Shown: positions 12,420-37,072 of the stretch, one piece after another | Numbering within the stretch: position 1 is the first letter of the stretch | Layout: the number at the start of each line of letters is the position of its first letter | Assembly: GCA_004292595.1 (NCBI GenBank) | Contig: RDXM01000098.1 | Coordinates: 1-43,765 of the forward strand | DNA length: 43,765 nucleotides | Direction of reading: 5' to 3' | Source of the DNA: Candidatus Kapaibacterium sp. | GTDB lineage: Bacteria > Bacteroidota > Ignavibacteria > Kapaibacteriales > UBA4661 | Program-made: the position numbers and the translations under genes | Notes under the pieces: model-generated | Databases searched by the model: none | The model's input: the letters and a program-made list of their open reading frames with translations, nothing else | What the model was told of the DNA's origin: nothing

Positions 12420-15400
12420 CTAAAAATTCCGCCCACCACTCAAATTCAAGCGAATATCCACCCCAAATTGTATGCCATTGCTGCCGGGCGTTGCCGCGCC
12501 TTCGGCTAAATTGCCGTCGTAGCTGAGAAAAGCTCGTGCCGTGAACTGCTTGCTGAAGGTGTACCGTGCGCTGACTTCCGCCGTGATTTTTGTTGTGCCG
12601 TCAATGACGCGGCTGGGAGTCGTCCCGCGTGGGATAACGTCCAGCGCGAGCGTCGTGCGGCGAAGATAGCTGAACTGCAAGCCGTATTCAATATCGTTTT
12701 CGACATTTACCTCCGAACCCAGCATTTTCAAGAGTTCCAAGCCCGGAATCTTCGGGAGCTTGAATCCACGCCGTGTGTACGTGCCTTGAATGGTGATGTT
12801 GTTCGTTTGTTCCTGCGTCATTACCGTCGGTTGCGACGACCGCATACCGTATTGCGCCTTGTTGTCGTAGCGGAGAGAGCCGCCCAAAAGCCCTTCGGCA
12901 AATTTATCGTCGAACTGCACATTGATTGCCAAAAGCGGCTCGAAGGAAACTGTCACGCTTTGCATATCGAACACGCGATTGCCGCCCCGCGTTACGCGCT
13001 CGGTGGAGGAATACCGCGCCACGTACTTGTGTTCGAGTGTGCCAGAGCGGAGAATGCCTTTCAACGGCTCAAATTGGTCGAGCGCGTTCCAGCGAAATGT
13101 CCAGTTTATCGCAAGTGGCACGTAGAATTTCCGCGCTTGACGTGCGGTGTCGGATTCATTGAACCCAGCAGAAGCATCTAAACCGTCAAAGAAAGCATCG
13201 TTAATATCCCTGATTGCGCCTTGTCGCCGCCCTGTTGTGTCTTTGCTTGGGCGCAAGGAAGGAATATTCCGCAAGGTTTGATACTGATTAAACAAGCTCG
13301 TTACCCGCTCAGGTGAATTGAAAAACGGAATGCTCAAGATGCTACGGTCGAAGGTGTAAAATTCCGTCGCATTGGCGGGCAACGAAACAATTCGTCCGTT
13401 CTCGCGCATATAGCCTGTTCCGTCGGTCAGCATGGTTTTCATAACGCGGTATTCGTTGCGTGCGCCAGAGGAAATTTCCAAGAGCGCTCCTTGCCAGAGT
13501 TCGCGCTGCATTCGCAGGTCGAGCGTGGTATTTTGCCGGAAAGCATCCAGCACGGCGGCGTTTGTGGGTCGTATGCCGCCGAGAACGCCGAAGACGGAAT
13601 CGCCCCGCGAAAAGAGATTGAACAAATTCTTGAGTTGCAAGTATTGATGCGGTTCGCGGACAAGCCCCAGTTGATACGCCATGCTCGGACCGTACATCTG
13701 CAAACTATCTGTTCCCAAGAATGGAATACCCGCAATGCCCGATGCGAAGCCCGTCCCACCAAAGCGATTGCCCAGAATACCGCTATTATTCGCGGTGCTG
13801 GTTTGTTGGAGATTAAAACTAATCTGCTCGAAGTCGCACAACGTCCTGACAAAGCGCGTCATTCCTTGCCCAATGGCGTGGAAAAAGACCGAATCAGGGT
13901 CGGCAGCGGCTTTGGTGGAATCAATTTTTTGTTGCGTTGGATTCGCGCCCGCGAGCGAAAGTGCCTGCCCAAAGGGGTCGTTCAAATTTGCTCCAAAGGG
14001 CGGCGCGGTCGGGCTTTGCGGCTGTTCTGGCGGAAGAATTGTTTTGACCAAATCCTTTAAACGCAGCGACAAACCGCCATTTAATGCGGCTTCTACGCGC
14101 GTGGCTTTGTTCAGGGCGTTGTTTTGGGAAACGTCGCCAGAGCCAGAAAAGATGCGCTCCCATGCGTAGTTTGAGGTATAGCGCAAGGTTGGCACAAGGA
14201 AACGATTGCCGCCCATAAACGCGGGAAAGCGCGGACGGAAATTCAGTGCAATGTTCTGCGTGTGGCGCATTTCCTCGCCGAGATTGAGCCAGTCAAGCGG
14301 GTTTGGTTTTCGGAAATCAAGAATGCGCCGAAAAACTGCGGTGTCCTCGCGCTGCGCTAAAATATCCCTTCCCGTTGTTTCATCCCGTACTATCTGGGTT
14401 TCAAAGTTGAGCATCGTGCTGAAAGTGGAAACCGACCAATCCAGCGTGGGATTCAGCAAGCCGTTGTCCTCGAGCTTCCACATCATTTGCATTTGCCGCA
14501 TCGCGTCGAAATTGCGCACCACGGGGGAATAGATGCTATCCAAGCGTGGTCGCCAAAAAGTTGTTTGCGTCTGCCGCGTCAGGCGGTCGAAAAAGCCTTG
14601 CTCATTGATGTACTCCTGAAGCACTACATTGCCCGCCGTATCCCGCCGCATCGTCGCCAAGCCGCGCAACGCCTCACCAACACGGGCGCGGTTCATTTCG
14701 ATATTCAGCGAAATATTGCTTGGCAAGACGTACAGCGTCCAATCTTTCAAGAAATCAAGTGCGGGAATGCTGTCCGTCCAGCCAAAGGGACGAATGGGAA
14801 TTTGCGCAAAGTTGCGGACGTACTGCGTTTGCCCGCGCCAGTTGAAGCCTTCGCGTATCAGCACAACGGGCGAGCTTTCTCGGCGCCGCGTGTAGGAGAA
14901 ATTGTGCGTGAGTTGGTTGAAGAAATCGGTGAAGAAGAAAAATTGTATCGGCACATTCAGCCGTACACCTTGCATTGCGAACTGCTCTTCAAAAACTTCG
15001 GTGTTGGCGGCTTGTTTTAAAAATTGCTGGTAGCCCGTTTTCTGTGCGTCCGTCTGATTGCGCTCTCGCAAGGATTCACTTTCAGCGAATTTCGACACGA
15101 TAATATCATTTTGCGGCAAAAAGCGCGGACTATCAAGACTGTAGGTGTAGGTGTGCGTGATGGGCAAACTCGACCCCGCCCAGTCGGCAGGCAGGAAACG
15201 GTCCAGCGTGAATTGCGAACTCACGTTGATGCTCGTCCGCGCATTCCGATTGCCAAAGCGTTCTTCCAATCGGTGAAAATAGGGCTGGGTAATGTTGACC
15301 GTTCCCGTCACGCTGCCGATGTCGGCAAATTTCGCTGTGACATTGCCCACTGCCGCAAAACTTTCTAGGCGAAACGCAGAAGCATCAATATCGGGGTCAA

Positions 15401-18400
15401 TCGCCCGCAACTCATTTGCCCAGAGCTTGACTTCACTGAGATTCGCACTGCCGTTGTTGCGAAGACCAATAGCGACGTACTGCAAGCGCGTGAGCGTCGG
15501 CGAGCCGCGAATAATAGACTCCGCTTGCGTGCTGGGGTCGATTGATGAAAACGAGCCGCCGCGCCGCAAGAGAGAATCAACGCCGCGTCCACCTTTGAGA
15601 GCACTCAGCACTGCAAGGTCGATGTCTGCTTGCTGCCAGCCTTTGCGCAAGGGGATATTGTATTCGTAGTAGTTGAGCGTATCGACACCAAAGCGCAAGA
15701 CGGCAAGAATACCATTGCGCCCTTGATTGACAACGGGATCGCCATTGAGAACAGCACTTGCGCTCACGGAATCTCCTAAGCGCACAAATTCGGTATTTTG
15801 CATCGCACCAACATTATCCGCGCTGCCCTTGCCATGAAAAAACATACGCAAGCGACGATAGAAAAATATATCGAAAGGACGGAAGAATCGCGCCACGAGA
15901 TGCTCCTGACGAGGCTGCAAGCCCTGCGAAGTAATAGCGAGTGCTTGCTCGTTCATGGCAATACGCAAGTTCGGGTCGGGGTTGCCGAGCTGCGTTTGGC
16001 GTTGTACGCCCGGCGGGCTGGTGTAAAATTCTGGCTGACCGCTATTGTCCTCCACGCCCACAAATCCTACTTGCAAGCGATTATCCACCTCGCGTGTGCC
16101 GGGCAGAAGCGCGGGCTGGCGTATCCACTGCGAGCCGACAAACCGCCAATCAGCAATGCGAGCGCGAATCTTCCCACCCACCCAGAACACCCGTGCATAC
16201 TGGATGTTCGTAAAAAGCGGATTCCCCACCCGCGTAAATCCTTGACGAATCGGGATGCGATAGGTGATGTATTGCAAGGAATTATCCGCTCTGCTGATAA
16301 CGCGATTCACAATTTGCGGGTCAGTTCCCGTGCGCTCAGTGGAGAGATTCACCTCGTAGCGGAAAAAGGCATCCGAGCGCATGAGCGTTTGCCCGTTGTT
16401 GTTGTTCAAAATTTCGGTATCGGGGAATTTCCCTGCATCGCTGACGGTGTTGCCTTCCACGCCGTTGTAGCGCACGAAATCGGAATCGCGCTGGAATTGA
16501 AACTGCGTGTTTGCATCGGCAAAAAAGAAATCATCGCGCGAGGGGTCTATTTCATTGCGAATGATGGAATCGCGGTTGTTCAAGGCGACTGCTTTATTGC
16601 GCACCGAGTTGTAGAGCGTGTCCCAGCGCACGGCGTTGGGATTGAAGAGCGTTGGTATAACCGTCGCAGCAGTGATGCGCGTTACGGATGTTACGGGAAT
16701 ACGAGCAGTCGAATCACGCAAATTCAGGCGTTCCAAGCTGCTCGGAATACCATCCAAACCATAATCTTCCTTCGCTTCGGAGGCAGTAATCATGCCGTTG
16801 ATGGTCGGCGACCACGGCAAAATACCGTCTTCGGTGTCAAGATTTCCGTTTGGAATCATATCCTCGCTAATTTGCCCCAAGTCAATAAACATCCGTGCTT
16901 TGGGTCTCTTTTTATTGGTGCTGTCGGTAATAATTTCCGATTCGCCTTCAATAACTTTCATCACAACTTCGATATATTCTACGTTGTCGTTGTCGAAGTT
17001 GTTGTTGAAGGGCGAGAGAAGGCGCATGAAACCGCCCCAGATATGATTTCTCGTGGAATCTTCGGCAAGGAATTTAGAAGGATTCCGTGTGCGGTCAATG
17101 TGAAAGGCTGCCAGTGCAATATCACGGCTGGTTGTAGCAGTGGTAAGTGCTGGAAGCCCAACGGAACGGCGATAGTTGTCAATCGCTGCTGCACGAGCCA
17201 TTGCATTCGTAGTAACAAGACTTTCGCAGTACGGCAGATTTGCTGGCGCGAGGTACGTCAAACTATCCCGAAAATTCTCATTCGGATTGTAAATGCCGCG
17301 CTGTTTGGGGTCGAAGGCAATTTCAAGTACCTTTTCCGCACCATTTGCCAGTGCGCCACCGCGAATAACGGAGCGGTTTGGCGCGATATTTTCAATCGGC
17401 TCGGTGCCACCAAAAAACTGAAACCAGTTCAAATTGCCGCGATACCGCGCCACTTCTTGCGGGTTGCGTCCCCACGTGGTAGGGAAAATACTACCTGTCG
17501 TATCGGTTGGCGGCGAGGCAAATCGCCACTGGGAATCTTGCCGCCCCAGCGAGAAATTACGCTGTGCGCCCTCGAAGTCGTCGATGTACACGGCGGGTTT
17601 GCCTTTGTCGGAAACCACGTCGGAGGCGCGGCGGTTCGGCGTTGGGAGCATAAACGCAATTTCGCCGCTTCCGGTGATGCTGGACGGTGCTTTGGTGTCG
17701 TAAAAGGGCAGCCAATCAAGGAATTTCGTTATCCAGTCCGCATTCCACGCAAACTTTGCATCCGCGCCAATCATGGTGTTGTCCATCGGCTCTTCGCCTA
17801 AGCGAATGCGCTCGGTCATGACTTGTTGGTTGTAGTTCATGACCGTAATTCCGAAGTCCGCCGTAATGTCGCGCGAGCGCAGAATGGGCTTGGTATCAAG
17901 GTCAATGCGGAGTCCCATCATTTGCTTGTTCGCCATTTGGAACACGTCGTTTTGCTCGTATTCGATTTCCAAATTCGCGCCCACCGCCAGCGCATTGGGA
18001 TTGATAATTTCCACCACGCCCGTAAAGTATTCGATGCGGTAATCGGTGTATTCTTCCAATACTTTGCTATTCAACAACACTTTCACGCTGCCGGGCGCGA
18101 GATTGAAGGCATTCGGAATCTGAATGCGATTGCCCGAACTGCCCGCCACTTCGCCCGAAATAATGAAGCGGTCGCGGGAAATATCGGTTTTGGCGGCATC
18201 GCGCGTGGTGTCATAGACCATCGAATAAATGAGCGAGTCGGGACTGAGAGAAATGCTATTGTCTCGAAAATACTGCTGCAAGCCCTCGCGGAACGGCTCT
18301 AAGCTCGGAAAGACCAGCTCGCCGCGCTGCGCATTGAAAATGTAATCTAAGTGCAAATCCATCAAACCATCGGCGGGACCAGAACCTTTGTTGTTCACCT

Positions 18401-20537
18401 TGTCCACACCAAAGACCGTTACGAGCTTCGCGGGCGAGCGAAACTGCGCCGGCAAGCTCTGAAGCGAGTCATTGCCAATGGGATTCATATAGACAATATC
18501 CAGCCTCGTATTTTCTGGCTTCACCTGCTGTACGCCGAGTTGATACACGTTCATCATTTGGCGTTGCCAGAGCGCACTAAAGGCGGGCTGCATATTCGGG
18601 CGATAGACCATTTGCAAGCGCAAAAGCGAATCCGTCGAGCGTGCCGACGGCTGGGGCGTGTTTGCATTTGTGCTGTCTTGTGTGCGGTTGCGGGAAAGAT
18701 TCACATTGCGAACAAAGGTGCCGTAGGTAATATCGTCGTCGTCGTCCAAGCGGTCGCCTTCCACGCGGTAGGCAATGCCGTAGGTGTTGGTTTGGCGCAA
18801 ATTGAAAATGATGAGCCGCCCCAAGTTTTGGTCGTAGAAATAGCGCGATTCGGGCAAGCGCACAAACCGCCCACGCTCAAGCGAACCCACGACATTCGGA
18901 AAATTCGGCGTATCGGCATATTTTTCAGGCGGATAAGCGGTATTTGGACCAATCACGGAATCAATGCTTGCAACAACGACCGCCTCCGCCGCTTCCTGCA
19001 CACGCGGGTCGGGAGTGCTTTCCCAGACTTCAATTTCCTTGACGCGCATTCTTGTTGCTAGGTCCGACGTTGGCGGTGCGGGCGCACTGCGCGTGTATTG
19101 CCTCCAAACCTCGCGGTGCCGAGCGTTGATGAAAAAATTATTGTTTGCGTAGTCGTAGGCGCGAAGCTGCACGGGCTGGCGCACTGCACCTGCCTTCACG
19201 CTCGCAACCTTGCGCTGTCCACGCTTTTGCGCGAACAAGAGTTTCACGAAAACAGGACCAAACTGCAAGTCCGTCCGCACACCAAAGAGAGCTTGCGACC
19301 CCGCAATGAAGGTCGAAGGCGAGTTCAAGGTAACGTTTCCTACCTCAATGCGGCGGAAAATCTCGTCTGGTTCGCCGTCGTAGGCAAAGCGCAGAAGGTT
19401 GTCGAACTCGAACTGGCGTTGGGTGTTGTTGTCGAGATTGATGCTGAATTTATCACCCAAACTCGCGGAGATATTGCTTTGCCAGCTTTGATTGAAGAGC
19501 GGCGAGGGCTGTATTTGACCATTTGCCGAGGGCGTGATATTATTGGCAATATTCAGCGCAAGCCCCAAGCGGATATTGCCCTCAATGTTCGCATTTAAGC
19601 GGAGTTCAGGCTTTCCGAAAATGGTGGTGAGAGGATTGCTGGGGAAGGGAATAGAAACATTCGAGGACTGCATGAGAATACTGGCAAGCTCTGCCTGAAG
19701 CGGCTTGCGGAAAGCGTAAAAGTGCATGATGGAATCCTGCACACCGCGCCGCAAATGCTCGTTCCGCGCCGAGACGTACTCATCCAGCGTGTAGGTCTGC
19801 CCGCCCGTGCGGAGGCTCGTTCCCGAAAGCGATTCTTGGATGCGCATGGATGCCGCATCGGTCGCGGGATTGCCCGTACTTTTGCGAACAGACTGCGCTG
19901 CCGTGCTATTGCTATTACCATTTTGAGCGGAAGAGGAATGTTGCTCCAACATCGCTTGAAAGCTATATCCTTGCGAAGAATTGTAGGGAATACCCTCTAC
20001 GCCGCTTCCACTGCGCCCGCCGAGCGCGTCGCTGCGCCTGACACCAAGCGAATCGGCAATGCGAGCAATATCCACAAACGGCTCGGAGAGAAGCGGGATA
20101 TTTGCTGCGTTGATGGTGTTGAGCGTGGCGTTGGTTGCGGAGAGAGCATTTGCGTTGGTCGCGGTGCGGGAAGCCGTTGTCGAGCTTGCAAGGAGGCTGT
20201 TGGCGTTGGTTGTGCGCACGGTGGCTTCGGTTGGGAAGTTCATCGTGAAGGCATTCAAAAAAGGAAACTCAAACCATGCGGAGGATTCCAGCAAATAGGG
20301 AGATTCAAGGAAATATGCGGTTTCTAAAAAAGAAAGTTCCAACGGAGCTATTTCTAGTGAAATAACTTCCAACGAGGCAGCTTCGAGCGCAGCAGGGGCA
20401 AAAAAACAGCACAATACGAGCAACACGCCCCGTACCGACGCTGCAAGCATTTGGCGATATGCGGAAAAAGGAGTACGATGAAACAAAACACTGTTCAATG
20501 CACGAAAAAGCAAGAATTGATGCGGGATATAACGCAT
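12420..20537 (-). CDS. sprA: SprA-family outer-membrane translocon of the type IX secretion system
   Basis: This giant exported protein (2,705 residues from the ATG at 20537) matches SprA/Sov. Early conserved blocks include KPELRLNANIEGNIRLGL, LGDKFSINLDNNTQRQFEFD, RRIEVGNVTL and FGVRTDLQFGPVFVKLLFAQ. The central part has VYIDDFEGAQRN, and the C-terminus ends in a beta-strand with terminal Phe (RLNLSGGRNF), as in outer-membrane barrels. In Bacteroidetes SprA forms a very large barrel through which folded type IX substrates cross the outer membrane. The start is uncertain: TTG at 20594, ATG at 20537 or ATG at 20450. The last gives the simplest signal peptide (MLAASVRGVLLVLCC...). No other secretion-system gene or obvious cargo tail is in the window. 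Confidence 0.9.
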   Translation of the reverse strand: MRYIPHQFLLFRALNSVLFHRTPFSAYRQMLAASVRGVLLVLCCFFAPAALEAASLEVISLEIAPLELSFLETAYFLESPYLLESSAWFEFPFLNAFTMNFPTEATVRTTNANSLLASSTTASRTATNANALSATNATLNTINAANIPLLSEPFVDIARIADSLGVRRSDALGGRSGSGVEGIPYNSSQGYSFQAMLEQHSSSAQNGNSNSTAAQSVRKSTGNPATDAASMRIQESLSGTSLRTGGQTYTLDEYVSARNEHLRRGVQDSIMHFYAFRKPLQAELASILMQSSNVSIPFPSNPLTTIFGKPELRLNANIEGNIRLGLALNIANNITPSANGQIQPSPLFNQSWQSNISASLGDKFSINLDNNTQRQFEFDNLLRFAYDGEPDEIFRRIEVGNVTLNSPSTFIAGSQALFGVRTDLQFGPVFVKLLFAQKRGQRKVASVKAGAVRQPVQLRAYDYANNNFFINARHREVWRQYTRSAPAPPTSDLATRMRVKEIEVWESTPDPRVQEAAEAVVVASIDSVIGPNTAYPPEKYADTPNFPNVVGSLERGRFVRLPESRYFYDQNLGRLIIFNLRQTNTYGIAYRVEGDRLDDDDDITYGTFVRNVNLSRNRTQDSTNANTPQPSARSTDSLLRLQMVYRPNMQPAFSALWQRQMMNVYQLGVQQVKPENTRLDIVYMNPIGNDSLQSLPAQFRSPAKLVTVFGVDKVNNKGSGPADGLMDLHLDYIFNAQRGELVFPSLEPFREGLQQYFRDNSISLSPDSLIYSMVYDTTRDAAKTDISRDRFIISGEVAGSSGNRIQIPNAFNLAPGSVKVLLNSKVLEEYTDYRIEYFTGVVEIINPNALAVGANLEIEYEQNDVFQMANKQMMGLRIDLDTKPILRSRDITADFGITVMNYNQQVMTERIRLGEEPMDNTMIGADAKFAWNADWITKFLDWLPFYDTKAPSSITGSGEIAFMLPTPNRRASDVVSDKGKPAVYIDDFEGAQRNFSLGRQDSQWRFASPPTDTTGSIFPTTWGRNPQEVARYRGNLNWFQFFGGTEPIENIAPNRSVIRGGALANGAEKVLEIAFDPKQRGIYNPNENFRDSLTYLAPANLPYCESLVTTNAMARAAAIDNYRRSVGLPALTTATTSRDIALAAFHIDRTRNPSKFLAEDSTRNHIWGGFMRLLSPFNNNFDNDNVEYIEVVMKVIEGESEIITDSTNKKRPKARMFIDLGQISEDMIPNGNLDTEDGILPWSPTINGMITASEAKEDYGLDGIPSSLERLNLRDSTARIPVTSVTRITAATVIPTLFNPNAVRWDTLYNSVRNKAVALNNRDSIIRNEIDPSRDDFFFADANTQFQFQRDSDFVRYNGVEGNTVSDAGKFPDTEILNNNNGQTLMRSDAFFRYEVNLSTERTGTDPQIVNRVISRADNSLQYITYRIPIRQGFTRVGNPLFTNIQYARVFWVGGKIRARIADWRFVGSQWIRQPALLPGTREVDNRLQVGFVGVEDNSGQPEFYTSPPGVQRQTQLGNPDPNLRIAMNEQALAITSQGLQPRQEHLVARFFRPFDIFFYRRLRMFFHGKGSADNVGAMQNTEFVRLGDSVSASAVLNGDPVVNQGRNGILAVLRFGVDTLNYYEYNIPLRKGWQQADIDLAVLSALKGGRGVDSLLRRGGSFSSIDPSTQAESIIRGSPTLTRLQYVAIGLRNNGSANLSEVKLWANELRAIDPDIDASAFRLESFAAVGNVTAKFADIGSVTGTVNITQPYFHRLEERFGNRNARTSINVSSQFTLDRFLPADWAGSSLPITHTYTYSLDSPRFLPQNDIIVSKFAESESLRERNQTDAQKTGYQQFLKQAANTEVFEEQFAMQGVRLNVPIQFFFFTDFFNQLTHNFSYTRRRESSPVVLIREGFNWRGQTQYVRNFAQIPIRPFGWTDSIPALDFLKDWTLYVLPSNISLNIEMNRARVGEALRGLATMRRDTAGNVVLQEYINEQGFFDRLTRQTQTTFWRPRLDSIYSPVVRNFDAMRQMQMMWKLEDNGLLNPTLDWSVSTFSTMLNFETQIVRDETTGRDILAQREDTAVFRRILDFRKPNPLDWLNLGEEMRHTQNIALNFRPRFPAFMGGNRFLVPTLRYTSNYAWERIFSGSGDVSQNNALNKATRVEAALNGGLSLRLKDLVKTILPPEQPQSPTAPPFGANLNDPFGQALSLAGANPTQQKIDSTKAAADPDSVFFHAIGQGMTRFVRTLCDFEQISFNLQQTSTANNSGILGNRFGGTGFASGIAGIPFLGTDSLQMYGPSMAYQLGLVREPHQYLQLKNLFNLFSRGDSVFGVLGGIRPTNAAVLDAFRQNTTLDLRMQRELWQGALLEISSGARNEYRVMKTMLTDGTGYMRENGRIVSLPANATEFYTFDRSILSIPFFNSPERVTSLFNQYQTLRNIPSLRPSKDTTGRRQGAIRDINDAFFDGLDASAGFNESDTARQARKFYVPLAINWTFRWNALDQFEPLKGILRSGTLEHKYVARYSSTERVTRGGNRVFDMQSVTVSFEPLLAINVQFDDKFAEGLLGGSLRYDNKAQYGMRSSQPTVMTQEQTNNITIQGTYTRRGFKLPKIPGLELLKMLGSEVNVENDIEYGLQFSYLRRTTLALDVIPRGTTPSRVIDGTTKITAEVSARYTFSKQFTARAFLSYDGNLAEGAATPGSNGIQFGVDIRLNLSGGRNF

Positions 20538-21133
20538 TTGGTTATCGGATAGTTGAACAAAAAAGCTCTGCAATGTAACCAATAGCAATTTCAAGAAAAC
20601 TGCGACAAGAGAACCGCGAGCTGTACAACGCTGTTTTTATGGGCAGAAGTTGTATCGTATCGTTTATCAGATAAGCAAAGCCTTTGAAGAGGTGAAACAA
20701 ACAAATCACAAGCGAGGAGCAAATTTACGAGAACAAATTGTTTTTTGGAATATTTTTTTTATTACGATTCTATCTCTGCGATATTTTGCTCTGTTCGCGC
20801 TCGGCAAATCTAGCCATACTGCGGTAAAAGCGGGTGGTTTGGAATGGTCATGAGTGCATTGGTCATTGGTGGTGAGATGATAGACAGCGAGGGCGTTTCC
20901 TCTCTTGCGCTGCTGAGTTTTTGCGAAACTTTATGCTGCCTTTACCGTCATTTTTCAGGTCTCTCTGCGCATTCATGCCAGCAGAAACATGAATATACTA
21001 AAAATGGGTAAAAATTGCATATCAAAAAGTGAAGGCGTTGAGATGTAGTCCACCTCAAAGGTGGACTACATCTGCAGCAATAAACCTTTTTCAGTATAGT
21101 TCCACCATTTACACCATTTTCACAAGAAAAGCA
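20538..21133. other. Divergent intergenic region between sprA and the DUF4386 gene
   Basis: About 600 bases without a convincing gene. On the minus strand TAAATTTG (20727-20720) and TAGATTTG (20814-20807) are candidate -7 boxes for sprA, but neither has a good -33 TTG. The right third is occupied by the MITE-like element at 20994-21098. Small open frames here have no recognisable protein features. Confidence 0.5.
20994..21098. repeat. MITE-like element with nested palindrome (family B, variant 2)
   Basis: The outer arms TATACTAAAAATGGGTAAAA... (20994-21018) and GCAATAAACCTTTTTCAGTATA (21077-21098, given here as its two halves GCAATAAACC and TTTTTCAGTATA) are imperfect inverted repeats. The core palindrome AGATGTAGTCCACCT, CAA, AGGTGGACTACATCT spans 21041-21073. 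The right half recurs at 27163-27223. It ends 35 bases before the DUF4386 start codon. Confidence 0.75.
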
Positions 21134-34325: not shown

Positions 34326-36662
34326 CTATTCAATCCGCCAACGCACACCCAGAAAGCCGCGTATTCCCTGAAACGAGGCATATGAATAGGTTGGGTCGAA
34401 GGTGAAACGATTCGGATTGTTTACAGGGTCGTTCACAAATTTGTCAAACGGGTCGAAGGCTCGCATGATAGAATTGGCGGGCGGTGTGTAGTTCAGCAGG
34501 TTTTTGATGCCACAATAGATTTCAAGCGGCGTGTCGGCAAAGGTTTTGGTGAATTGAATATTTTGAATGCTGAAAAGGGGCGAAAATTCAGGGCGCGAGT
34601 CGTTGGGAAAAATGGGAAGCCGCATTGGACCATACACCGCACCTGTATAATCGACCTTCACGCCCAATTCCTCAAGCGTGTAGCTCACACCAAACGTTCC
34701 CGAAACGCGCTCGCTCAGGATTTGCCACGTCCGTACACCATCGTCGGTGTTGGAAACGTCCATCACCGTTACGCCAAGCGTGATGTCGAGCGGGATTGCG
34801 CCAAAGTCCGCATCAATACTTGCTGATATGCCCTTCGATTCCCCAAAGCCGCGCAGATTCTCGTAGATAATCGCTTCGGGGTCGGTATCGTAATCGGGAA
34901 TAATTTTGTTGGTGAAATGCGTAAAAAATGCTGCTGCATCCAGCGTAAGCGTGATTCCATCAAGGCTGGCGGTCTTTGAGTAATTGAGATTGAGATTGTA
35001 CGACGTTTCCGGACGCAATTCCTCGCGCACAATCACGCGCCGCGCACCCGTGAGCGCGGCGTGGTCTTCGGCAAAAAGATTCACCACGCGGAAGCCCGTG
35101 CCGCCCGAAAGCCGCACCACATCTTGCGTTTCAGACTTCCATTTGTAGTTCAAGCGCGGCGTAAAAATGCTGCCGTGTGCGCTGCTCCAATCGTAGCGAA
35201 GGCTTGCAAGCAGCGTGTGGTCGGGCGCGAAAGAAAATTCATCTTGCACAAAAACGCCCGGAAGTACAATGCGCTGTGGTGTTGCGTTGCCGTTTGCGTC
35301 GTTAGTGGCGGGCGTGTTATCTTGATAGACGGTATAGCGCGTTGCCGCGCCGAACAAGAATTTATGCGGTGTTTGGGCAATCGTGATTTCTTTGTCCCAC
35401 GTCAGTTGCGCAAAGGCAATTTGCTGCCGCGCCTCGTAAAAGCTCGTTCCGTAGTAGGAATTTTGATGATGATGATTGAAGGATGCCCGTAGCATCACGT
35501 TTTCATTCTCAAACGGCAGTTGATATGCGCCCAACGCCTCAAAACGATTTGTCCAGATAGATTCGCCATACACGCTGTCGCCGCCGCGAAATTCTGGTTG
35601 CCACTGCATTTGCCCACCCAAACGATTCTCGTGCAAATACCGCGCTGCAAGCGAGGTTTCAAGACGTTTACCGCTTTCGGTTGTGCGGTCAAAATTCCAC
35701 TTCAAAAATGCCGACAAACGCTCTTGCAAGGGAGCATCCATCATGCCGTCGGCGTTGTTGTCCACGCGATTGCTCATGGTGTAGTAATTCGCACCCAGAA
35801 GCCCCGTACCTATCGGGGTTTTGAGCTTGAGACTCGCATCCAGATTATGCTCCAACCACGACGTAGAAAAAGCATCCAAGGCAAGCAACGATGAGCGTTC
35901 TGGCGATTTTGTGATGATATTGATAATTCCTGCCAACGCCTCTGAGCCATACAAGGTCGAAGCGGGACCTTTCACCACTTCAACGCGCTCAATCATGCTT
36001 GTTGGAATGCCGCTCAAACCATAGACCGTTCCCAAGCCGCTTACAATGGGCATTCCGTCGAGTGTAACCATTGTGTACGCGCCTTCCAGCCCGTTCAGGC
36101 GAATATCACTTGTGCCACAGACACCGCAATTTATCTGGGGTCGGAGACCATTCACATTTTGTAGCGCGTCCACCAAACACGCCGACGGATTTTTTTTCAA
36201 AAAGCTCGGCGTAAAAACTTCCACCGCAACGGGCGAATCAGAAATCAAGGTTTCGCGCCATGTTCCCGTGATGACGAGCTTTTCCGTTGTTTTTGTATCT
36301 TCGTCCATTTGAAGCTGCACAGCAAGGTTTTGTGCGGCTTCGAGGCGAATGGAGTGTTTGAGCGTTTTGTAGCCAATGCGCTTTGCTTCCAGTGTGTACG
36401 CGCCTTCGGGGATATTTGCAATACGAAAATTACCAGCCGAATCCGTCCGCGCACCAAAGGGCGTTCCCACGAGGCGCACTGTTGCAAAGCCGATAGATTC
36501 TGCCTTCTTGCTTACAATATTGCCGCGTAGGGTTGATGTTTGCTGGGCTTGGGCAATAGAAAAAGCGCAGAGCATGAGCAGGAGCGCAAACATATTTGTT
36601 TGTGCAAAATACCGCATTGTGGTGAAAACTCTCATCTCGTAAACTCGTACAAAGCTCGTCAT
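34326..36662 (-). CDS. TonB-dependent outer-membrane receptor with CxxC plug motif
   Basis: The 778-residue protein has a signal peptide (hydrophobic LLLMLCAFSIAQAQ). A carboxypeptidase-regulatory-like domain follows (TLRGNIVSKKAESIGFATV to LQMDED). Next come a TonB-box-like segment (TEKLVITGTW) and a plug domain with the Cys pair INCGVCGTSDIRLNGL, PASTLYGSEALAGIINIITK and an IPTSMIERVEV segment. The rest is a 22-strand-type barrel ending GFLGVRWRIE. It imports a scarce ligand across the outer membrane with TonB energy; the ligand is unknown. Its ATG overlaps the TGA of the 104-residue membrane-protein gene (ATGA at 36659-36662), indicating translational coupling and supporting this start. 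Confidence 0.9.
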   Translation of the reverse strand: MTSFVRVYEMRVFTTMRYFAQTNMFALLLMLCAFSIAQAQQTSTLRGNIVSKKAESIGFATVRLVGTPFGARTDSAGNFRIANIPEGAYTLEAKRIGYKTLKHSIRLEAAQNLAVQLQMDEDTKTTEKLVITGTWRETLISDSPVAVEVFTPSFLKKNPSACLVDALQNVNGLRPQINCGVCGTSDIRLNGLEGAYTMVTLDGMPIVSGLGTVYGLSGIPTSMIERVEVVKGPASTLYGSEALAGIINIITKSPERSSLLALDAFSTSWLEHNLDASLKLKTPIGTGLLGANYYTMSNRVDNNADGMMDAPLQERLSAFLKWNFDRTTESGKRLETSLAARYLHENRLGGQMQWQPEFRGGDSVYGESIWTNRFEALGAYQLPFENENVMLRASFNHHHQNSYYGTSFYEARQQIAFAQLTWDKEITIAQTPHKFLFGAATRYTVYQDNTPATNDANGNATPQRIVLPGVFVQDEFSFAPDHTLLASLRYDWSSAHGSIFTPRLNYKWKSETQDVVRLSGGTGFRVVNLFAEDHAALTGARRVIVREELRPETSYNLNLNYSKTASLDGITLTLDAAAFFTHFTNKIIPDYDTDPEAIIYENLRGFGESKGISASIDADFGAIPLDITLGVTVMDVSNTDDGVRTWQILSERVSGTFGVSYTLEELGVKVDYTGAVYGPMRLPIFPNDSRPEFSPLFSIQNIQFTKTFADTPLEIYCGIKNLLNYTPPANSIMRAFDPFDKFVNDPVNNPNRFTFDPTYSYASFQGIRGFLGVRWRIE

Positions 36663-36973
36663 TGCTTGTGTCCAATCAATTCATAATACTTTTCTTTTGG
36701 TTCGCCCGTTAAACCATTTACGCCATTTTTTGGAAGCCAATAGCCGTGAACCAGAGCAAACATCAGGCTTCCAACAATACCAATGCTCCAATAGGCTATG
36801 CTGCGCAAGCCAAGCGAGGACAGTATCAGCACAAACACAAGGAATAATGCGGTCTTCAGCAGACGTTTCCATGCGGGTTTGTGTGCTTCAAAGTGTCCAA
36901 AGAAAAGATTGCCGATGTGAAAAATGGACATCATCACGGCAATATCGAACCAAAAATCGTTTGGAAGGCTCAT
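36659..36973 (-). CDS. Small inner-membrane protein coupled to the TonB receptor
   Basis: The 104-residue protein has about three hydrophobic helices: an N-terminal one (DIAVMMSIFHIGNLFFG), a central pair (LLKTALFLVFVLILSS and IAYWSIGIVGSLMFALVHG), and a short polar tail (EPKEKYYELIGHKQ). Between helices is GHFEAHKPAWKRLLK, a charged loop likely on the cytoplasmic side. No enzymatic motif is visible. It is the first gene of a two-gene operon, sharing the ATGA overlap with the receptor. I infer that it helps uptake or sensing of the same ligand. Confidence 0.7.
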   Translation of the reverse strand: MSLPNDFWFDIAVMMSIFHIGNLFFGHFEAHKPAWKRLLKTALFLVFVLILSSLGLRSIAYWSIGIVGSLMFALVHGYWLPKNGVNGLTGEPKEKYYELIGHKQ

Positions 36974-37028: not shown

Positions 37029-37072
37029 AATTTTAGCTCTTAAAACATATTTTTTAGATAAAGCTAAAAATT
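37029..37072 (-). terminator. AT-rich hairpin at the end of the MFS gene
   Basis: AATTTTAGCT (37029-37038) pairs with AGCTAAAAATT (37062-37072) with one bulge. The MFS stop codon lies in the stem. It is AT-rich and weak, so terminator function is only a guess. Confidence 0.35.

Follow-up and report, generated by a model that had tools for sequence, protein, structure and literature searches.

The outer-membrane receptors ZnuD, for zinc, and OprC, for copper, form their metal sites from plug and barrel together; OprC uses CxxxM/HxM, and ZnuD is not known to have a CxxC. A search of the open-licence literature returned two cases of TonB-dependent manganese uptake, Burkholderia MnoT and a Stenotrophomonas receptor, and no paper devoted to the passage of manganese across the outer membrane in Bacteroidota. 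MnoT of Burkholderia thailandensis was described as a TonB-dependent manganese transporter by Si et al. (2017), as cited in PMC13217887. According to the same paper, Stenotrophomonas maltophilia Sm18 has an MntR-regulated CQNC-type TonB-dependent receptor (TBDR) together with a periplasmic thioredoxin-fold protein (pTFP); its authors place Mn2+ by modelling at the CQNC motif and residues of the barrel, and leave the function open (PMC13217887).

Here we describe a TonB-dependent receptor and a small membrane protein encoded next to each other in a stretch of 43,765 bases, referred to as the window, which belongs to a genome of 4.6 Mb (G000). Like ZnuD and OprC the receptor would have an ion rather than a siderophore as its cargo, and ZnuD is found at rank 42 of the Foldseek matches to its model; the regulators of ZnuD and OprC are other than those considered here. 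By sequence the receptor is closest in the PDB to XusA (9gbc), Cir and BtuB, and the best folds are those of Cir and BtuB, with siderophore receptors among the best, although these three have no CxxC in the aligned stretches and their cargo is siderophore and cobalamin. The likeness to the CQNC-type TBDR/pTFP system lies in the plug CxxC, the upstream MntR-box, the link to mntH and mntR, and a thioredoxin-fold partner, which is present in 14 of 80 loci of the receptor family of the window (PMC13217887). The window receptor differs from that system in having CGVC and not CQNC, a comparison made with the CQNC and CQTC rows of the order; in its neighbours, which are the small gene and the RlmB gene, with no thioredoxin-fold gene; and in its partner, a small three-helix protein (PMC13217887). 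With MnoT, compared by description only, it would share TonB-dependent uptake of manganese through the outer membrane, whereas MnoT works with a secreted manganese-binding protein, TseM (as cited in PMC13217887). The MntR-regulated CQNC type is already published, and the window receptor belongs to a clade separate from it, with a new accessory.

Organization of the locus

The features of the locus are collected in Table 1. The receptor, the upstream membrane protein of 104 residues, the INCGVCGT motif in the plug and the ATGA shared by the two genes had all been pointed out in a first-pass annotation, and each is present in the sequence, with both ORFs on the minus strand. Three Pfam domains are found in the receptor above their cut-offs (PF13715; PF07715, E-value 3e-22; PF00593, E-value 7e-23), and the plug and beta-barrel by which a TonB-dependent receptor is recognized are seen by Pfam, in the AlphaFold2 model (mean pLDDT 84.7) and by Foldseek. 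The RlmB gene lies downstream of the receptor and an MFS gene lies upstream of the small gene (ORFs, Pfam/NCBIfam), the predicted operator overlapping the stop codon of the latter.

Table 1. Positions in the window of the receptor gene, the small gene and associated sequence features
Feature	Positions	Strand	Basis
TonB-dependent receptor (CarboxypepD_reg-like domain, plug, beta-barrel), 778 aa	34326..36662	-	ORF, Pfam, AlphaFold2, Foldseek
INCGVCGT, receptor plug residues 177-184 (C179, C182)	36111..36134	-	Sequence, family alignment
Small membrane protein, 104 aa, three predicted helices	36659..36973	-	ORF, alignments, AlphaFold2
ATGA, small-gene stop overlapping the first receptor ATG	36659..36662	-	Sequence; same in G005, G006
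TTTAGCTTTATCTAAA, predicted MntR/DtxR-type operator, 79 bp before the small gene	37053..37068	-	Motif search

The ATGA overlap is retained in two other genomes of the genus, G005 and G006, and a longer overlap is present in G007. In G006 the overlap ATG is the sole ATG ahead of the receptor signal peptide and is therefore probably the receptor start there; in the window three more in-frame ATGs precede the signal-peptide core, so that a receptor start at ATGA is putative. Elsewhere in the window, positions 12420-20594 are occupied by an ORF of 2724 aa with an SprA_N domain (PF14349, motility/secretion).

The receptor family and its cysteine pair

A scan of the named genomes gave 278 relatives of the receptor, and the best 80 of these (46–91 % identical) were taken as the family and aligned with the window receptor in 81 rows. 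These best 80 come from Bacteroidota in the wide sense and include members from the cultured genera Chitinophaga, Flavobacterium and Pedobacter; six of them (L046-L051) belong to the genus of the window, L051 resembling the G002 copy. The receptor is present in seven of the eight genomes of this genus, six copies being 63–91 % identical to that of the window, and G001 has a distant match only.

Every one of the 81 aligned sequences has a CxxC at plug residues 179 and 182. The pair reads C[NS][VI]C in 78 rows, CGVC in two (the window and L046) and CAVC in one, and a receptor from a sister genus (L016, G008), 38 % identical to that of the window, has CGVC at the same place. The first-pass annotation had called the pair unusual, which is true of TonB receptors at large but not within the family, where the alignment makes it a signature of a large group of Bacteroidota receptors, beyond chance. 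Among the 30 best receptor matches of the order, 28 rows were usable (L016 and L030 were left out); CxxC is absent from 16 of the 28, and five represent a second receptor type with CQNC or CQTC in the same columns. A tree of 33 rows, midpoint-rooted and with long branches, was made from 14 family rows (every fourth), the five of the CQNC/CQTC type and 14 without CxxC, and it places the family of the window and the CQNC/CQTC type in separate groups, each with support of 100/99.

Three histidines, H398, H496 and H534, are each found in all 81 family rows. H496 and H534 occur in 14 of the 14 family rows of the tree set and in none of the other 19; H398 is common to 11 of the 14 receptors without CxxC and was rejected as a family-specific residue, and the five rows of the CQNC/CQTC-type clade have no His at 398, 496 or 534. 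A common Cys-His site is therefore not supported. The DxNxDG motif (D301-D309) was rejected as a specific metal site, since D301 and D305 are also present in the 14 rows without CxxC and the five CQNC-type rows, as was Cys162 as a signature, which is invariant in the genus but Cys in just seven of the 81 family rows. M198 and M204 are likewise present in 81 of 81 rows, although both sit in one of the two search patterns used for the family and their invariance is partly a matter of selection; neither of the patterns includes the Cys pair. A HMMER alignment places C179 and C182 close to residues 58 and 61 of the BtuB plug, a region that forms a ligand-contacting loop.

The CxxC might instead be a redox element, a disulfide that is reduced by a periplasmic thioredoxin-fold protein and gates the plug, and a metal cargo would be compatible with this. 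In the 80 family loci the four nearest genes to either side of the receptor were clustered, with genes taken from simple longest-ORF calls, so that small neighbours were possibly missed, and with contig ends clipping some loci; the clusters were identified by Pfam on one member each. A thioredoxin-fold cluster member, so identified by Pfam on one, lies immediately downstream of the receptor in 14 of the 80 loci, with a CxxC in 13 of the 14. A reductase of this kind has been proposed for the Stenotrophomonas CQNC receptor (PMC13217887). Set against this are the other 66 loci, which have no called thioredoxin-fold neighbour though the Cys pair is invariant, and the window, which has none, and we regard the redox role as doubtful, if worth keeping in mind.

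A predicted operator and its putative regulator

Of the 80 family loci (the best 80 of 278 relatives), 59 have the palindrome TTTAGN6CTAAA upstream of the receptor, the zone searched extending from 700 bp before the aligned start of the receptor to 60 bp beyond it. These zones, amounting to 60 kb, contain 59 matches, as against 23 in the remaining 1.27 Mb of the same 80 loci. Spacers from 0 to 14 other than N6 gave matches in 0–3 of the 80 loci each, dinucleotide shuffles of the loci gave a mean of 0.27 loci and a maximum of 2, and the palindrome occurs in none of 16 loci of the order with receptors that have no CxxC. The geometry of TTAGN6CTAA is that of the DtxR/IdeR box.

A DtxR-family cluster is present within four genes of the receptor in 43 of the 80 loci, and in 36 of the 80 it is adjacent, upstream and divergent. 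TTTAGN6CTAAA is contained in 24 of these 36 divergent receptor-regulator intergenic regions, where letter shuffles gave at most 7 for any dyad. The motif is accompanied by an adjacent divergent regulator in 27 of the 80 loci and by a regulator elsewhere within four genes in six, and stands alone in 26; 10 loci have the regulator without the motif and 11 have neither. The exact palindrome is missing from 21 loci, including the 10 with a regulator within four genes, and nine of the 11 with neither carry a thioredoxin-fold gene, eight of these being Runella. In G017, a genome of the order, a CQTC receptor and a DtxR-family gene are divergently arranged on either side of TTAGTTTAGTCTAA, and because of this gene and TTAGTTTAGTCTAA the family of the window and the CQNC/CQTC group may share a role.

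The genome of the window has one DtxR-family protein (PF02742). The PDB chains nearest to it are labelled as iron-dependent or metal-dependent regulators, followed by ScaR and SloR; among NCBIfam models MntR scores highest (222.9 bits, below the cut-off of 350), and no operator site occurs in 10.5 kb around its gene. Reference positions for the sensor site are Cys102 of DtxR, where MntR has Glu, and position 8 of MntR. All 44 aligned regulators, that of G000 included, have Glu at this position; at the MntR Asp8 position 43 have Asn and only G000 has Asp, and the Glu11 position is Lys in all 44. The sensor site is therefore not that of a classical MntR, and we call the regulator MntR-type rather than MntR, since the Glu is universal among the 44 but the Asp8 position is Asn in all save one.

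Permeases near the receptor are of the ZIP (25 of 80 loci), NRAMP (nine) and FeoB (seven) families, and a CobW-type GTPase is found in six of the 80 neighbourhoods; one member of the ZIP cluster best matches ZupT, below cut-off. The small gene or receptor is preceded by an ECF sigma gene together with a second gene at L041:3259-5428 (G007), L157:3234-4985 (G003) and L043:2998-4915 (G002), and also in G004. The sigma factor was confirmed by Pfam on two, and the second gene, a candidate for an anti-sigma factor, has no Pfam match. Surface signalling through this pair was considered, but the window has no such pair at this position.

Operator sites and mntH in the genus

One TTTAGN6CTAAA site is present in the window and three in its genome, and the eight genomes of the genus have 2–5 sites each, 28 in total. 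Seven of the 28 lie before mntH, nine before the receptor or the small gene, and one before a di-haem oxidoreductase gene (G006). Some of the exact sites are due to chance, because the remaining 11 lie elsewhere (seven of them inside ORFs) and a reversed pattern searched as control is commoner than the operator motif in each genome, with 8–24 occurrences. All seven receptors of the genus have the operator, which stands before the small gene when this precedes the receptor and otherwise directly before the receptor.

The operator precedes mntH in seven of the eight genomes, 15–84 bp ahead of the mechanically called start, and in each of the seven the operator-linked mntH is the only strong NRAMP; no NRAMP match was found in G004, which is 86 % complete. 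In the genome of the window this site is at C97:4672, 68 bp before mntH, so that the operator is shared by mntH and the small gene/receptor, and the mntH product passes the MntH model NF001923. The G000 MntH (L149:4756-6663) carries a fused universal stress protein domain (PF00582), an arrangement also seen in a Flavobacterium copy (L085:5406-7280).

The same regulon logic would hold for an iron receptor controlled by an iron-sensing regulator of DtxR/IdeR type. The box geometry, FeoB in seven of the 80 neighbourhoods and the siderophore receptors among the best folds all fit this reading, but the 44 of 44 regulators with Glu instead of Cys at the DtxR Cys102 position, and a co-target in the genus that is an NRAMP passing the MntH model, make iron unlikely.

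The small membrane protein

AlphaFold2 predicts helices at residues 5-28, 34-53 and 57-82 of the small protein (mean pLDDT 73), and alignments identify two conserved parts, an FExHxPxWKR loop and an HxYWxPKxGxNG tail. Residues E29, H31, W35, K36, R37, H76 and W79 are invariant among the seven members from the genus and a homologue of another genus at 39 % identity. No Pfam or NCBIfam family was found at cut-off, NCBIfam giving no match at all, and there was no match in the PDB; a Pfam hit to Gp34_2nd was ignored (19.3 bits against a cut-off of 27). Homologues are rare, being found in five of 395 genomes of the phylum (three of the window's genus) and in 10 of 390 of the class (six of the window's genus).

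Within the genus the small gene adjoins the receptor in four of the seven genomes that have it (G000, G005, G006 and G007) and lies apart in G001, G002 and G004. Six of the seven small genes have the operator, 79–226 bp upstream. In G002 and G004, which are near relatives and not independent, the gene is away from the receptor with its own operator 80 bp upstream, and G004 has just two operator sites, one for each of the two genes, on different contigs. A second operator with one mismatch follows the first by 22 bp before the small genes of G007 (L041:5634), G004 (L042:5866) and G002 (L043:5114). G001 has neither a receptor nor an operator at its small gene, which precedes a di-haem oxidoreductase gene; directly upstream of the small gene, L044:1-212 is repeated as a 96 % copy over 212 bp at L184:2109-2320. 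This repeated sequence is probably a mobile element, and it could have removed the operator of the small gene.

Outside the genus the operator is absent from seven loci of small-protein homologues, and membership of the small protein in the regulon is therefore a feature of the genus. No receptor is evident in the flanks of the homologues in G228, G024 and G047. A protein of about 126 aa is encoded directly before the receptor in nine family loci (e.g. L071:7501-7884), the position of the small protein in the window; that of L071 has no Pfam match.

The two genes had been proposed to form a dedicated uptake module, to be judged by whether homologues of the small protein lie next to such receptors elsewhere. 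The shared operator supplies the link to metal, but the obligate pairing falls away with adjacency in only four of seven genomes of the genus and none beside the three homologues just named. The objection raised in advance thus applies by half, and yet the small gene shares the operator in six of seven cases, two of them away from any receptor. It is quite improbable that the small protein stands beside the receptor by chance and has nothing to do with metal uptake. The limited adjacency, the rare homologues elsewhere without an operator and the G001 gene with neither operator nor receptor would be expected of a chance neighbour; they are opposed by the separate operators in the two related genomes G002 and G004, by the ATGA overlap retained in three genomes and by the possible loss of the G001 operator to the repeat.

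Proposed role in metal uptake

We put at about 60 % the probability that the pair in the window is an outer-membrane importer of divalent metal, most likely Mn2+, under MntR-type control and with a co-regulated inner-membrane accessory, a reading drawn from the operator and its targets, the conserved Cys and His residues and the operon layout, all of which are seen in the DNA. The decisive support is regulatory, namely the operator in 59 of 80 loci, the adjacent regulator in 36 of 80 and mntH as co-target.

As we infer it, the metal-loaded MntR-type regulator of the DtxR family would bind TTTAGN6CTAAA in the promoter and switch the operon off, and a shortage of metal, most likely Mn2+ and perhaps with Fe2+, would allow a single mRNA to be made, on which translation of the small gene and the receptor would be coupled. 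Driven by TonB, the receptor would move an ion or a small chelate through the outer membrane; a possible metal site would consist of the plug CxxC, which probably points into the ligand cavity, together with residues of the barrel, H496 and H534 for example. MntH, under the same operator, would then bring the metal through the inner membrane. As for the small three-helix protein, it may be a genus-specific inner-membrane accessory of the regulon, and we can offer as a guess that it hands metal over to MntH or tunes MntH. More tentative is a fuller account, to which we give less than even odds, in which an ancient Bacteroidota TonB-dependent Mn importer has a thiol site at the plug CxxC and one MntR-type operator, and the genus has added the three-helix protein as a dedicated part of Mn uptake that is able to act apart.

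Some points count against manganese. ZIP proteins (Zn/Mn/Fe) are the most frequent permeases in the wider family, the CobW-type GTPases fit zinc too, and Mn2+ usually favours sites harder than one made of thiolates. The identity of the metal rests on the MntH co-target and the type of regulator; zinc and iron keep some probability. Least probable is an importer of zinc or copper, in which CxxC and barrel residues would bind Zn2+ or Cu+ in the manner of ZnuD or OprC, since the ZIP and CobW-type neighbours (one ZIP member being nearest to ZupT, below cut-off), the invariant C179, C182, H496 and H534 and the ZnuD fold match are opposed by a regulator of the DtxR family, neither a Zur nor a copper sensor, and by MntH as the co-target in the genus.

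Because the receptor family, with an operator of its own, extends over dozens of genomes and into some cultured genera, the question of manganese in Bacteroidota becomes testable, and the operator predicts the remainder of the regulon. The di-haem oxidoreductase gene (PF06537) has its own operator in G006 (L177:1561-2840) and follows the small gene in G001 (L044:267-1830), and may for these reasons join the metal regulon.
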